Shown here: piece by piece, positions 16,156 to 21,720 of the stretch
Numbering within the stretch: position 1 is the stretch's first letter
How the letters are laid out: every line of letters starts with the position of its first letter
IMG/VR virus record: IMGVR_UViG_3300030104_002097
Coordinates: 1-21,720 of that record
Strand: one strand, 5' to 3'
Origin: a virus
DNA length: 21,720 nucleotides
Program-made: the position numbers and the translations under genes
The notes under the pieces: generated by a model
Told to the model about the DNA's origin: nothing
The model's input: only the letters and a program-made list of their open reading frames with translations
Databases searched by the model: none

Positions 16156-17244
16156 TCAGCTATAAGAAACAGAATCAGCAGCCCACAGCTCAATAGCAGC
16201 GGCGGGGTTCAGTGTTCCAGCACCCATGGCAAGACGACCAACAACGATGTCACCTTGATACATGGTGCGAACATCAGATCCAGTGGTCTGGACTTGAGGT
16301 CCGATGGCTTCCACAACAGCAGCAGCATCCTTCTGATAAATCAGACCAGCGTGCTTACTGAAGTCACCACCATAGAAGTTGTTCTCACCAGCAACAGCAG
16401 AAACGTTGCCACCACTCAGCATGAAGGGCAGGTTGTTAGAACGCTTGATAGAGATACCAGCGATTTCATACAGACCTTCACCACTGTTCAGGTTGCCCTG
16501 AGTGTTGCCATAGTCACGATTCAAGATATTGGTATCAACTTGAGATACGAGTGCATAGTACTGACGTGGTGACAGTACAGCGAAACGACCTTCGCGGGGT
16601 ACATTCTTTTCATCAAGGATTGAAGCAGCTTCATAGAAGCCGTCAACCAGTGCTTGAGCATTGAACTCTTTGTTAGCACCAAGAGCGATGGTAGAACCAC
16701 CAGGCTCAGGACCAGGTGCAGCAGTCACAGGGTGTGCTTCGCGTGCTGCCAGAGCGACAGTACGGAAGATCTTCTTGTCATAAGCTTCAGCCAGAGCATA
16801 TCCAATCTTCTTGGAGATCTCAGAACGAAGGGAATAATGAGCAAGAGTTTCATCCAGGTCATAAACGAAAGCTGAGGAAATCAGCAGGTCATCCATGACG
16901 ATGGTCTTCTCTGCCACCGGGGGATCACCACTACCTAGGATTGGAGTTCCAGGTGTGTGGTATTCCGCCTGCATGCGACCAGTGAAGATGAACTGCATAG
17001 ACTTACCGTTACGGAGCTGACGGTTCTGGACCGTGCCCTTAGCGATACATGCAGATTCATAAGCCTTGAACATCTCACCACTAAACAGTTTGAGGTACAA
17101 GGCATACTTTCCAGTATCTACACCCGGCTGATAACCAGGAGTCGTTGCGTTTGAAGCTGTGGAAAGTGCAAGTTGTGGGCTAGAGTTAATCGAACCCAAC
17201 GGAGTTGAAGTACTATTTGGAGGAGTACCAGCAGTAGCAGTCAT
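16156..17244 (-). CDS. Major capsid protein (gp10-like)
   Basis: 362 aa, near T7 gp10A (345 aa), with the T7-family capsid pattern. A flexible Thr/Ser/Pro-rich N-arm (residues 1-40) is followed by ALYLKLFSGEMFKAYESACIAKGTV, SMQFIFTGRMQAEYHTPG, the E-loop-like IVMDDLLISSAFVYDLDE, YALAEAYDKKIFRTVALAAREAH, GRFAVLSPRQYYALV, and a C-terminal domain containing VGRLAMGAGTLNPAAAIELW. It forms the icosahedral shell together with the scaffold. The ATG is preceded by six A and has no visible Shine-Dalgarno sequence, which is odd for a very highly expressed gene. The 172-base leader in front of it is rich in palindromes. No frameshift extension of the gp10B type is evident. Confidence 0.93.
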   Translation of the reverse strand: MTATAGTPPNSTSTPLGSINSSPQLALSTASNATTPGYQPGVDTGKYALYLKLFSGEMFKAYESACIAKGTVQNRQLRNGKSMQFIFTGRMQAEYHTPGTPILGSGDPPVAEKTIVMDDLLISSAFVYDLDETLAHYSLRSEISKKIGYALAEAYDKKIFRTVALAAREAHPVTAAPGPEPGGSTIALGANKEFNAQALVDGFYEAASILDEKNVPREGRFAVLSPRQYYALVSQVDTNILNRDYGNTQGNLNSGEGLYEIAGISIKRSNNLPFMLSGGNVSAVAGENNFYGGDFSKHAGLIYQKDAAAVVEAIGPQVQTTGSDVRTMYQGDIVVGRLAMGAGTLNPAAAIELWAADSVSYS

Positions 17245-17524: not shown

Positions 17525-17541
17525 TGTTAGTACCTAGTAAT

Positions 17542-17563
17542 CCATGCCCCGTTCCATGCATGG
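17542..17563. repeat. Inverted repeat CCATGC/GCATGG between two micro-genes
   Basis: CCATGC at 17542-17547 and GCATGG at 17558-17563 could pair as a 6-bp stem around a 10-base loop. The right arm is itself inside the perfect palindrome CCATGCATGG (17554-17563). It lies in the 42-base gap between the 54-aa and 35-aa ORFs, upstream of the palindromic capsid leader. Role unknown. Confidence 0.5.
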
Positions 17564-17566
17564 TAA

Positions 17567-17731
17567 TTATGCGTCTAAGGTGGACTCAAGTACCAACTTA
17601 TTGAATTCATATTCAAGATATGCTATTGCTTCTTGTTCAGATGGATGACCACCTGCCCATTGATTTCTATACAGACGCAAAGCATCACGTATAATAATAG
17701 CAGAATCAGTTGTACATTGTATGTTCCACAT
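17567..17731 (-). CDS. Small cyanophage hypothetical protein (54 aa)
   Basis: 54 aa from ATG 17731: MWNIQCTTDSAIIIRDALRLYRN, then QWAGGHPSEQEAIAYLEYEF and NKLVLESTLDA. Helix, a W-x-G-G turn, helix. The pattern R-D-A-L-R-L-Y-x-x-x-W-x-G-G-x-P-x-E-Q recalls small conserved cyanophage proteins of unknown function; this is memory, not a search. The frame stays open up to a TTG at 17779, but that start would overlap the preceding gene by 29 bases and its extra residues are not needed for the motif, so ATG 17731 is chosen. No strong ribosome binding site is seen. Soluble, no signal peptide. Confidence 0.65.
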   Translation of the reverse strand: MWNIQCTTDSAIIIRDALRLYRNQWAGGHPSEQEAIAYLEYEFNKLVLESTLDA

Positions 17732-18360: not shown

Positions 18361-19440
18361 TCAGCCGATAGCTGGTGCTTTGAGTGCAAAAGGCACTACA
18401 TTATTAGCAGCCAAATCGAGTGGGAAATTATGTGCATTTCTTTCATGCATAACTTCCATGCCAAGGTCGGCTCGATTAAGAATGTCTGCCCATGTATTGA
18501 TTACATGACCATCACCTGAAACGATTGACTGGTTGAAATTAAAACCATTTAAGTTAAAAGCCATGGTGCTAACACCAAGGGCAGTGAACCAGATGCCAAC
18601 AACCGGCCAAGCAGCCAGGAAGAAGTGAAGGCTACGGCTATTGTTGAACGAAGCGTATTGGAAAATGAGACGACCGAAGTAGCCATGAGCTGCAACGATG
18701 TTGTACGTCTCTTCTTCTTGTCCAAATTTATATCCATTGTTATGTGATTCAGATTCTGTGGTTTCACGTACGAGTGAAGATGTAACCAAAGAGCCGTGCA
18801 TAGCACTAAATAGAGAACCACCGAACACTCCAGCAACGCCCAACATATGGAAGGGGTGCATAAGAATGTTGTGCTCTGCCTGAAAAACAAGCATAAAGTT
18901 GAACGTACCGGAGATACCGAGCGGCATACCGTCAGAGAAGGATCCCTGACCGAATGGGTAGACAAGAAACACGGCAGAGGCTGCAGCCACAGGTGCGCTG
19001 TAAGCAACGCAGATCCAGGGGCGCATCCCTAGTCGATAACTAAGTTCCCATTCTCGTCCCATGTAAGCGAAGATACCGACAAGGAAGTGGAACACAACCA
19101 GTTGGTAGGGACCACCGTTGTAGAGCCATTCGTCGAGGCTACCTGCTTCCCAGATTGGGTAGAAGTGTAAGCCGATTGCATTGCTTGATGGTACAACGGC
19201 GCCGGAGATAATGTTGTTTCCGTACAGGAGTGATCCTGCGACTGGTTCTCTAATTCCATCGATGTCAACTGGGGGTGCGGCTATAAAGGCAATAATGAAA
19301 CAAGTGGTTGCTGCGAGTAAACATGGAACCATGAGTACACCGAACCAACCTACATAAAGACGGTTATTTGTGGACGTCACCCACTCGCAGAACGAATCCC
19401 ATGGGGTATTCTGCTGTTGAAGTGTTGTTGTTGCGACCAT
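18361..19440 (-). CDS. psbA: Photosystem II D1 reaction-centre protein (phage-borne)
   Basis: Full-length D1, 359 aa. With its partner D2 it binds the pigments and cofactors of photosystem II in the thylakoid membrane. All key residues are present: TyrZ Tyr161 and His190; manganese-cluster ligands Asp170, Glu189, His332, Glu333, His337, Asp342 and Ala344; chlorophyll/iron ligands His198, His215 and His272; QB-site Phe255, Ser264 and Phe265. Residue 130 is Glu, the form linked to high-light D1 in cyanobacteria. The 15-residue C-terminal extension after Ala344 ends ALKAPAIG but begins ANNVVPF, unlike the usual A-E-S-T-P-V. Known: cyanophages carry psbA to keep photosynthesis going while infection stops host synthesis of short-lived D1. 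It sits between a barrel-like gene and micro-genes, with 45-base spacers on both sides. Confidence 0.99.
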
Positions 19441-19485: not shown

Positions 19486-19845
19486 TTAGAACTTGTAGGT
19501 TACACCTACTTTAGAACCGATGCTGAGTTCATTAACATCAAACTCTTTGTCTTCGGTTAGAAAAGATACTTCACCATAAAGGTTCAGATCAGTTGACAGG
19601 TCCGTACCAAATCCCAGCTTGCCGGAGTACTCAGTAGAACCTTCAGCATCTTTTGTAGATATAAAGGCAGGACCACCTTGAACATAAATACCACTACCAA
19701 ATTCATAACCAGCGTGGACTTCAGTTAGACCAGAGCCAAATTGAGAATCCCTGTAAGAGGCGTTGTTCTCGATGTTTGCATAGGGTCCAGCAACTGCCGG
19801 AGCAGCAATGGACAGGAGGATACCAGTAGCAATAATAGATTTCAT
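19486..19845 (-). CDS. Secreted outer-membrane beta-barrel-like protein
   Basis: 119 aa. Residues 1-19 (MKSIIATGILLSIAAPAVA) are a clear Sec signal peptide with an A-V-A cleavage site before GPYANIE. The mature part alternates polar and hydrophobic residues in strand-sized pieces (VHAGYEFGSGIYVQGGPAF, YSGKLGFGTDL, LNLYGEVSFL, IGSKVGVTYKF) and ends in aromatic Phe, the usual sign for outer-membrane barrel assembly. About 100 residues would give four to six strands, so it may oligomerise or be a minimal barrel. From memory, similar porin-like proteins recur in marine cyanophages; no virion role is proven. It lies just upstream of psbA and probably shares its transcript. There is no clear ribosome site before the ATG. 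Confidence 0.75.
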   Translation of the reverse strand: MKSIIATGILLSIAAPAVAGPYANIENNASYRDSQFGSGLTEVHAGYEFGSGIYVQGGPAFISTKDAEGSTEYSGKLGFGTDLSTDLNLYGEVSFLTEDKEFDVNELSIGSKVGVTYKF

Positions 19846-19959: not shown

Positions 19960-20730
19960 TTAAAAATCGATATTTGAACGTGAAAGTTTCTCCATTACTT
20001 CCTGCCTATAAGCAGGATCAGAGTCGTACTTAGCATCCTTCATAGCTCGGACAACTGCAGCCTGACTCTTGAATACATCTTTACTCTCAGGTCTTGGAGA
20101 ACGACCTGTAAGCAACTTACCTTCAACGCCTTCTGAACTCGCATAACGAGCTTGTAAGGCTTGAACTGCAAAGAAGATAGATGCACGGTCTCCACTCTCG
20201 ATTACTCGATCAAACATGGAGACCTCTTCTTTGTTGAATGATTTCTGTGCCCACTCAACCATAGTCTTATATGACTTTTCACCACCTACCATTTCCTTGA
20301 CGCTATTAATATCAGCCTGTGTAATATCACCTTTAGGCTTTTGACTTTGTTTACTACGAGCGTCAAGGTAAGCATCAGCTAGATCAGATTTACTCATGTC
20401 TTCCAATTTGTTTTGGATAGACTCAGAGAATCCTTTTTTATCACTCTGTGATTCTTCCCACAAAGCATCAAAAAAATTTACTTCTTGTTCTTGTGGTTCT
20501 TCTTTAGTAGCTTCTTCTTTTGCTGGTGCTTCTTCTCGTTCACCATTACTGAACTTAGATTGCAATTCAATATATGCTTTCTCTAAAGCTTCAGCATCTT
20601 TATATTTACCAGCTAGCAATTGCTCTTGCTGTTCTGCAATCCGTTCACCTACTGCAAGACTATCTTGTTCATCAGCAGTAAGTTCACCTCCTTCAGGAGC
20701 TTCGGATGCATCATACGTCAGTGTAGCCAT
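19960..20730 (-). CDS. Capsid assembly scaffolding protein (gp9-like)
   Basis: 256 aa. The protein is acidic and helical: N-terminal MATLTYDASEAPEGGELTAD, then the T7 scaffold hallmark AGKYKDAEALEKAYIELQSKF (residues about 38-58), a Glu/Lys-rich low-complexity stretch (about 60-85), and a helical C-terminus (SDPAYRQEVMEKLSRSNIDF) that should bind capsid subunits. Known role: it guides shell assembly and leaves before DNA packaging. The start is set at ATG 20730 because GAGGAG lies 5 bases upstream. An in-frame GTG two codons earlier (20736) would place that site too close. The first 20 bases overlap the preceding small ORF. Confidence 0.9.
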   Translation of the reverse strand: MATLTYDASEAPEGGELTADEQDSLAVGERIAEQQEQLLAGKYKDAEALEKAYIELQSKFSNGEREEAPAKEEATKEEPQEQEVNFFDALWEESQSDKKGFSESIQNKLEDMSKSDLADAYLDARSKQSQKPKGDITQADINSVKEMVGGEKSYKTMVEWAQKSFNKEEVSMFDRVIESGDRASIFFAVQALQARYASSEGVEGKLLTGRSPRPESKDVFKSQAAVVRAMKDAKYDSDPAYRQEVMEKLSRSNIDF

Positions 20731-20950
20731 TAGCACTCCTCACTTTCAAATTACCAAGTCCAACCGAATCCACATAATTGGTAGAACGTCCGAGGGTGGG
20801 GTTACCAATCTTTGGTTTCGGTGCATACTTATTTGGATTACCTGCATTACCAAGTGAACGTTCTTCTTGTGTAGGAGGAAGTTCTGCTTGACTTTGTTCA
20901 GGTGTTTTACTCTTACGAGTTCTTTTAGTTGGTTTAGTTTCTTCTGTCAT
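20711..20950 (-). CDS. Small basic protein between portal and scaffold
   Basis: 79 aa: MTEETKPTKRTRKSKTPEQSQAE..., with a lysine/arginine cluster at residues 6-15, a Pro/Gln/Glu linker, then Gly/Asn-rich GNAGNPNKYAPKPKIGNPTLGRS and a short C-terminus. It appears disordered with no membrane segment. Its ATG overlaps the portal stop (ATGA), and it overlaps the scaffold start by 20 bases, so all three are translated as a unit. This suggests a role in head assembly, possibly at the portal or with the scaffold. I do not recognise a named family. Confidence 0.78.
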   Translation of the reverse strand: MTEETKPTKRTRKSKTPEQSQAELPPTQEERSLGNAGNPNKYAPKPKIGNPTLGRSTNYVDSVGLGNLKVRSANGYTDV

Positions 20951-21720
20951 TGTTGTGCTTGCATTTGCATTTGTTGCTGCTGATCGAGCTGAGCAAATTG
21001 TCCAGCTTGCTTAGCCATCTCCATATCAATGGCTGAGTTCTGAGCAGCTTGTTGTTCTTGTTGCTGATCTTGCATACTCTTAACAAGGTTCAAAGTATCG
21101 ATACCCATTGCAGCGGCTAGTCGTTTAATTGCTTCATCACTATTAATGAACTTCATCATTGCCTCAGGTCCAAGGGTTCCAGCAACAGTAGTCATGAAGT
21201 TAGTTAATGCTTCACGATCCATGCCTCGACCAACACCATTAAGACCAGCAATAATTGTAGGTTTAACAAAGTCTTTTGGTATTTTAGGAATAGACTTTGC
21301 TTTAGTAAGCATTGACATCTTACGATTTAAATACGGAACCAAGAACTCAACAGTAAGCAGACTAAATAATCCACCTAGCTGCTGCTCTAGTTCCATCTGT
21401 GTCATACGTACTTCTTCAGCAGTAGTACGTTCACTATTTCTTACCTGAAGAACCATGAATGCTTCAGCTAATCGCTTTTCCAGTACTTGCATCTGTTGTG
21501 CAGCAGTCTGGAAGTCAGCTCCTTTACCTACTTGAACAACACCAATGTCCTCAGGTCTACCTTGGACAATGGCACCGTTCCTAGCTTGAGCCAGAGTCTG
21601 TGGTTTAGTGGTGCTTGAAGGGGATACAACAAAGACAACTTTAGCTGCTGCTGCAGAGCCTTCTACGAGTGCCTGAGAGAGTGCTTCGAGTGACTTGAGA
21701 TCACCCATAAACTCTTCTAC
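20947..21720 (-). CDS. Portal/head-tail connector (gp8-like), C-terminal part
   Basis: The frame is open to the right edge, so the N-terminal half is outside the window; 257 residues are seen. The segments KVVFVVSPSSTTKPQTLAQA, FQTAAQQMQVLEKRLAEAF, TAEEVRMTQMELEQQLGGLFSLLTVEFLVPYL and IVQGRPEDIGVVQVGK match the C-terminal half of T7-family portals, including the T-A-x-E-V-x-x-x-x-E-L-E-x-x-L-G-x-x-x-S stem helix. The end is a glutamine/methionine-rich tail (about 35 residues with long Q runs) that probably forms the barrel/crown or is disordered. Twelve copies make the DNA entry ring. The stop overlaps the next ATG (ATGA). Confidence 0.93.
   Translation of the reverse strand, partial: VEEFMGDLKSLEALSQALVEGSAAAAKVVFVVSPSSTTKPQTLAQARNGAIVQGRPEDIGVVQVGKGADFQTAAQQMQVLEKRLAEAFMVLQVRNSERTTAEEVRMTQMELEQQLGGLFSLLTVEFLVPYLNRKMSMLTKAKSIPKIPKDFVKPTIIAGLNGVGRGMDREALTNFMTTVAGTLGPEAMMKFINSDEAIKRLAAAMGIDTLNLVKSMQDQQQEQQAAQNSAIDMEMAKQAGQFAQLDQQQQMQMQAQQ

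Follow-up and report, generated by a model that had tools for sequence, protein, structure and literature searches.

Pfam family PF24653 (Phage_OMP) has described members in cyanophages of two kinds. In cyanomyoviruses the cluster DUF680 (PhCOG173, T4-GC 241) belongs to this family and adjoins nrdC, phoH or pstS, not psbA. In PMC3686209, DUF680 (PhCOG173), which may be a pstS-side paralogue, appears with PstS on the list of cyanophage genes that are over-represented at BATS, where phosphate is low. ORF224 of S-TIM4, labelled a nutrient-response gene by its authors, was not listed as particle-associated. On Synechococcus WH8102 the gene acquired 13 mutations, many of them disrupting, with a summed frequency of ~100% in each population, while no mutations arose on two Prochlorococcus hosts; no homologue is reported in the three host strains of that study (PMC6224464). 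Two peptides of S-SZBM1_90 were detected in CsCl-purified particles (PMC9146016), and published accounts of particle association therefore differ between relatives. Taken together, the S-TIM4, S-SZBM1 and BATS data favour a dispensable protein with a value that depends on host and condition. In the T7-like cyanophages S-TIP37, S-SBP1 and S-RIP2, a protein of the same family is encoded immediately 5' of psbA between the scaffold and capsid genes.

The latter arrangement is also that of the locus analysed here. The window, a 21,720-base virus record, is a T7-like cyanophage as judged from psbA, the T7-like head genes and the nearest isolates, which are cyanophages. The features of the window are as follows.

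19486..19845, minus strand: gene for a 119-residue Phage_OMP (PF24653, PHROG 417) precursor, here termed OMP (open reading frame and profile matches)
19789..19845, minus strand: predicted signal peptide, residues 1-19, with the cleavage motif AVA/GPY (residue pattern in 50 relatives)
19489..19788, minus strand: predicted mature barrel domain, 100 residues, ~10.7 kDa (AlphaFold model and relatives)
19489..19512, minus strand: C-terminal beta-signal K112-x-G114-x-x-Y117-x-F119 of the BAM recognition type (50/50 relatives)
18361..19440, minus strand: psbA, photosystem II D1 (PHROG 182, E 8e-197), 45 nt downstream of OMP
19960..20736, minus strand: scaffold or head assembly gene, upstream of OMP (PHROG 1052, E 1e-48)
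20947..21720, minus strand: portal (head-tail adaptor) gene, C-terminal part, cut by the end of the window (PHROG 449, E 9e-77)
16156..17244, minus strand: major capsid protein gene, downstream of OMP (PHROG 267, E 4e-80)

The head-gene block thus runs portal, scaffold, OMP, psbA, small genes, major capsid and tail tubes. The original prediction had placed a 119-residue reading frame directly upstream of psbA among head genes; its coordinates were confirmed, and the strand, which it left unstated, is minus, with the ATG at 19845, the stop codon ending at 19486 and psbA starting 45 nt past that stop codon. A plus-strand reading of 19486-19845 is full of stops and was rejected. Comparison with five close relatives gave a dN/dS of ~0.2 for the OMP gene, indicating that it is constrained by purifying selection. 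Between the scaffold and OMP genes lies a 30-residue, very basic reading frame beginning MPYGPGTYGTKKGRPPVKK (19957-19865, minus strand), which is also present in two related loci (L002 and L007). No tRNA was found in a search of the window.

The protein matched PF24653 over nearly its full length (residues 2-119 on model positions 3-122; E 1.8e-29, 102.9 bits against a cut-off of 27) and PHROG 417 with an E-value of 3.7e-27; the latter was also matched by 50/50 relatives. The same Pfam family was assigned by hmmscan to S-TIM4 ORF224 and S-SZBM1_90 (both with E below 1e-28) and to P-HM1_228, and P-SSM7_232 was related by tblastn. A tblastn search with OMP (E up to 0.01) returned 466 records, all carrying organism names of Synechococcus, Prochlorococcus, cyanophage, marine virus or uncultured phage. 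These profile and database matches identify the window gene as a member of a cyanophage-specific family, with which it has in common the full-length match, signal peptide, C-terminal Phe and restriction to cyanophages, and from which it differs in sequence divergence only. Identity is below 60% to all annotated phages, ~38-42% to the S-SBP1 and S-RIP2 copies and 92% to the nearest IMG/VR contig; the S-TIP37 copy has diverged. Novelty of the protein is not supported: both the family and the outer-membrane-barrel reading are already catalogued in Pfam, the latter in the family name, and the reading itself contains nothing new. In one related locus (L043:6001-6373) the OMP gene is split into two frames of 68 and 77 residues, because either the copy is disrupted or the sequence contains an error.

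The distribution of OMP next to psbA was evaluated in 53 T7-like loci, 46 of which reach far enough to show what follows the OMP gene. In 43 of the 46, psbA is located 37 to 520 nt downstream; the other three contain no psbA before the capsid gene. The same order is found in the isolates S-SBP1, S-RIP2 and S-TIP37 and in a MedDCM fosmid. The pairing is common in T7-like cyanophages but not obligatory. In the regions read, psbA of P-SSP7, S-CBP3 and S-CBP4 occupies the same place but OMP is missing, Syn5 has neither gene, and OMP follows psbA, in reversed order, in NATL1A-7, NATL2A-133 and P-SSP10. Among myoviruses, OMP adjoins nrdC and phoH in P-SSM7, P-HM1 and S-TIM4 and hli genes in others. 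In S-TIM5, S-H68, S-SCSM1 and Bellamy it occurs in tandem with a second PF24653 copy, OMPb, followed by pstS, at these positions:

L088:2998-4897: OMPa-OMPb-pstS
L091:3944-5835: OMPa-OMPb-pstS
L105:2998-4910: OMPa-OMPb-pstS
L106:2998-4935: OMPa-OMPb-pstS

The original prediction of a host-remodelling cassette with psbA consequently stands as a partnership in T7-like contigs (43/46) and is too specific otherwise, given psbA without OMP in three phages, the reversed order, and the myovirus genes beside pstS, nrdC or hli.

The signal peptide, called from the residue pattern in the alignment and not from a dedicated predictor, comprises K2, a hydrophobic stretch to residue 15 and an A17-x-A19 cleavage motif in which A19 is invariant among the 50 relatives. 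Also invariant in this alignment are P21, Y22, N24, E26, N28, G46, Q56, G58, P59, Y90, G91, E92, K112, G114 and F119. All 50 relatives end in the pattern polar-x-G-x-x-aromatic-x-aromatic, the terminal Phe being F119. The AlphaFold model computed from the same alignment has six strands (residues 20-30, 38-48, 53-63, 70-82, 87-96 and 108-117) with a pLDDT of 83, most strand regions being above 85. A second model with one of the shortest relatives as query has the same six strands (pLDDT 80); its alignment consists of reordered rows largely overlapping with the first, and both models are monomers. One face of the predicted strands is polar and conserved (N24, E26, N28, E42, H44, Q56, K76, Y90, E92 and K112). 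The mean hydropathy difference between faces was 2.72 versus 1.21 expected, and alternation as strong occurred in 2 of 20,000 within-strand shuffles of the family profile and in 36 of 20,000 of the single sequence, in a test not fully independent of the model from which the strand limits were taken. The clean Sec signal peptide, strand-like alternation and C-terminal Phe noted in the original prediction were thus all borne out, the last as an invariant residue within the beta-signal.

In Foldseek searches of the PDB, model one matched OmpX and OmpA best, and the high-ranking matches of model two included OMPLA, BAM-bound EspP, OmpX and designed transmembrane barrels, although with either model no PDB match had an E-value below 0.001 and none fell below 0.06. 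The family profile matched no PDB sequence. Similarity to PF13505 (OMP_b-brl) was weak and sub-threshold, in 15 of 50 relatives, and weak similarity to Porin_4 was also found. The eight-stranded OmpX and OmpA transmembrane domains, the best PDB folds for model one, have in common with OMP an amphipathic meander, a polar core and a beta-signal; OMP differs in its six predicted strands and 100 residues and in the lack of a significant sequence or fold E-value. No natural six-stranded outer-membrane barrel is known, the known natural minimum being eight strands. The models, being below that minimum, point either to an unusually small plugged barrel as monomer or to a six-strand unit that oligomerises. 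Monomer prediction thus yielded six amphipathic strands and mostly outer-membrane folds, and soluble folds of the avidin type were matched as well. The earlier proposal of an outer-membrane-type beta protein is supported by PF24653, weak PF13505 similarity, the beta-signal and the fold matches; "outer-membrane" is here a designation from sequence, by which insertion of OMP in that membrane is strongly indicated.

The explanation preferred here, given about an even chance, is that OMP is a cyanophage-specific outer-membrane protein which remodels the outer membrane of the infected cell, pays on some hosts and under some conditions only, and is no structural part of the particle. The precursor would be made together with psbA during the head-gene phase, late timing being taken from position only. 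Sec would export it with cleavage after Ala19, and BAM would insert the mature protein in the outer membrane, where six-stranded units would either assemble into an oligomer or each form an unusually small closed barrel whose polar core is plugged. There OMP may alter permeability or nutrient entry, phosphate being the best candidate. The fold E-values, the fact that no natural barrel of six strands is known, the presence of S-SZBM1_90 in particles and the absence of a Pho box at the window gene count against this explanation.

The main rival, considered unlikely, is superinfection exclusion, in which a barrel in the outer membrane would hide or disturb a phage receptor on the infected cell such that later phages or released progeny fail to adsorb. 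The location suggested by PF24653 and the beta-signal, the confinement of the family to cyanophages in the collections searched, and the loss in S-TIM4 on WH8102 only, as expected of a surface-acting protein, are all consistent with exclusion, which would equally explain host dependence. However, profile searches covering PHROG and Pfam gave no match resembling any known exclusion protein, and the conserved residues are in strands, not in long surface loops. Exclusion genes are often early, whereas OMP is among late head genes.

That OMP is a minor part of the virion, such as an accessory protein of the tail or capsid, is improbable. Although the gene is between the scaffold and capsid genes and S-SZBM1_90 was recovered from CsCl particles (PMC9146016), its two peptides could also derive from membrane vesicles that co-purified, the S-TIM4 homologue is dispensable and listed as not particle-associated (PMC6224464), and a signal peptide with an outer-membrane beta-signal is not in favour of such a role. 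A similarly low probability is given to a small-molecule-binding protein of the periplasm with a soluble beta-barrel of the avidin or lipocalin type. It would account for shwanavidin and avidin among the model-one fold matches (probability up to 0.87, TM 0.52) but not for the outward-facing hydrophobic side, the beta-signal pattern in 50/50 relatives, the weak PF13505 and Porin_4 similarity or the model-two matches, which are dominated by outer-membrane proteins. Least probable is a role in lysis, with OMP weakening or piercing the outer membrane as infection ends. Although OMP is exported and in a presumed late region, no holin or endolysin genes adjoin it in the neighbourhoods read, disrupted S-TIM4 copies became widespread on one host, and P-SSP7 and Syn5 are without OMP in the region read.

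Within the preferred explanation of outer-membrane remodelling, the phosphate link rests on the neighbours of relatives, one a separate paralogue, and not on the window phage. Of 129 leader-bearing OMP loci of other cyanophages among the matches listed, 25 have pstS no more than 1.2 kb downstream. Of 21 loci, 10 have Pho-box-like CTTAN7CTTA repeats ahead of the paralogue OMPb, versus ~14% in shuffles; the 200 nt upstream of the OMP gene in the window contain no Pho box.

In a tree of 77 relatives, built on an alignment of ~105 columns and with many forks unresolved, the window gene falls in a supported set (100/99) in which T7-like phages are mixed with another lineage. This lineage (L010-L018 and L093) carries a family A DNA polymerase, a tyrosine integrase and an HNH-like gene, and contains the closest non-T7 relatives of OMP. 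Mixing of the two in one supported set suggests that the gene has moved between phage lineages. A host origin was rejected: the single genome_contigs match, a contig of a Puniceicoccaceae MAG (L093), looks viral because it has the integrase, the HNH-like gene and other small genes in common with phage contigs L010-L018. The genome_contigs scan for hosts used one short pattern, and host absence is thus not proven.

The OMP genes of S-H68, S-SZBM1, S-CAM9, S-T4 and Bellamy are preceded by CATCTGYGGGTAAYCATTCCRCAAGTAA and an upstream hairpin, of which S-SCSM1 has a variant. The positions of this structured 5' leader are:

L091:3868-3946, plus strand: structured 5' leader
L092:3917-3997, minus strand: structured 5' leader
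L102:2923-3000: structured 5' leader
L103:2921-3000: structured 5' leader
L106:2920-3000: structured 5' leader
L108-L284: IMG/VR loci with the structured 5' leader

The leader consists of a variable, compensating stem with a GUCGA loop followed by the CATCTGYGGGTAAYCATTCCRCAAGTAA hairpin. Sites were collected from IMG/VR by a scan with two core patterns, each giving at least 120 stretches; conservation of the core was selected by the pattern and is no evidence. Among the matches listed, 180 of 182 sites are directly before an OMP gene, the other two being cut by the locus end. Of the 97 distinct leaders among those matches, 90 have an upstream stem of at least 5 Watson-Crick pairs, versus ~12% in shuffles; 43 different 5' arms occur in this stem, mostly with the GUCGA loop, and together with the retained pairing indicate compensation outside the searched core. 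One pair of the second hairpin is changed on both sides in 26 of the 97, a change that the pattern allowed without forcing. RNAalifold recovered the second hairpin only, since MAFFT misaligns the variable first stem, which was evaluated with a separate script. No Rfam 15 family matched at the leader, and in scans it was absent from the window and the T7-like loci.

As far as the sources show, four things are new: the prediction of six strands, the counts of gene neighbours, the linking of what was found in S-TIM4 and S-SZBM1 to this family, and the RNA leader. A broader proposal, tentative at best, is that OMP is a virus-only outer-membrane protein of several cyanophage lineages, smaller than any known natural barrel, with six strands closing only as an oligomer; it would serve as a general device refitting the infected cell's outer membrane and in many other carriers be governed by a dedicated, uncatalogued RNA leader. 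If OMP does refit the host outer membrane, viruses would change the nutrient exchange or phage admission of abundant ocean photosynthesisers during infection. The sweep of broken copies in S-TIM4 is a measurable fitness effect that makes a direct test possible, and the leader of the relatives is a second handle on when OMP is made.

A glutamine-II riboswitch candidate is located between psbA and the capsid gene of the window (17541-17589, minus strand), scoring 20 bits, below the 33-bit cut-off; in three relatives (L007:8108-8161, L095:4621-4685 and L096:3573-3629) the scores were 41, 37 and 59 bits. The CATGGAACGG core recurs between psbA and the capsid gene in most T7-like loci that reach there. 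The window site is followed by a 35-residue reading frame (17524-17417), an arrangement known from the Downstream-peptide motif (PMC2864571). In NATL1A-7, NATL2A-133 and P-SSP10 the OMP gene is ~100 nt after the glutamine-II riboswitch site.
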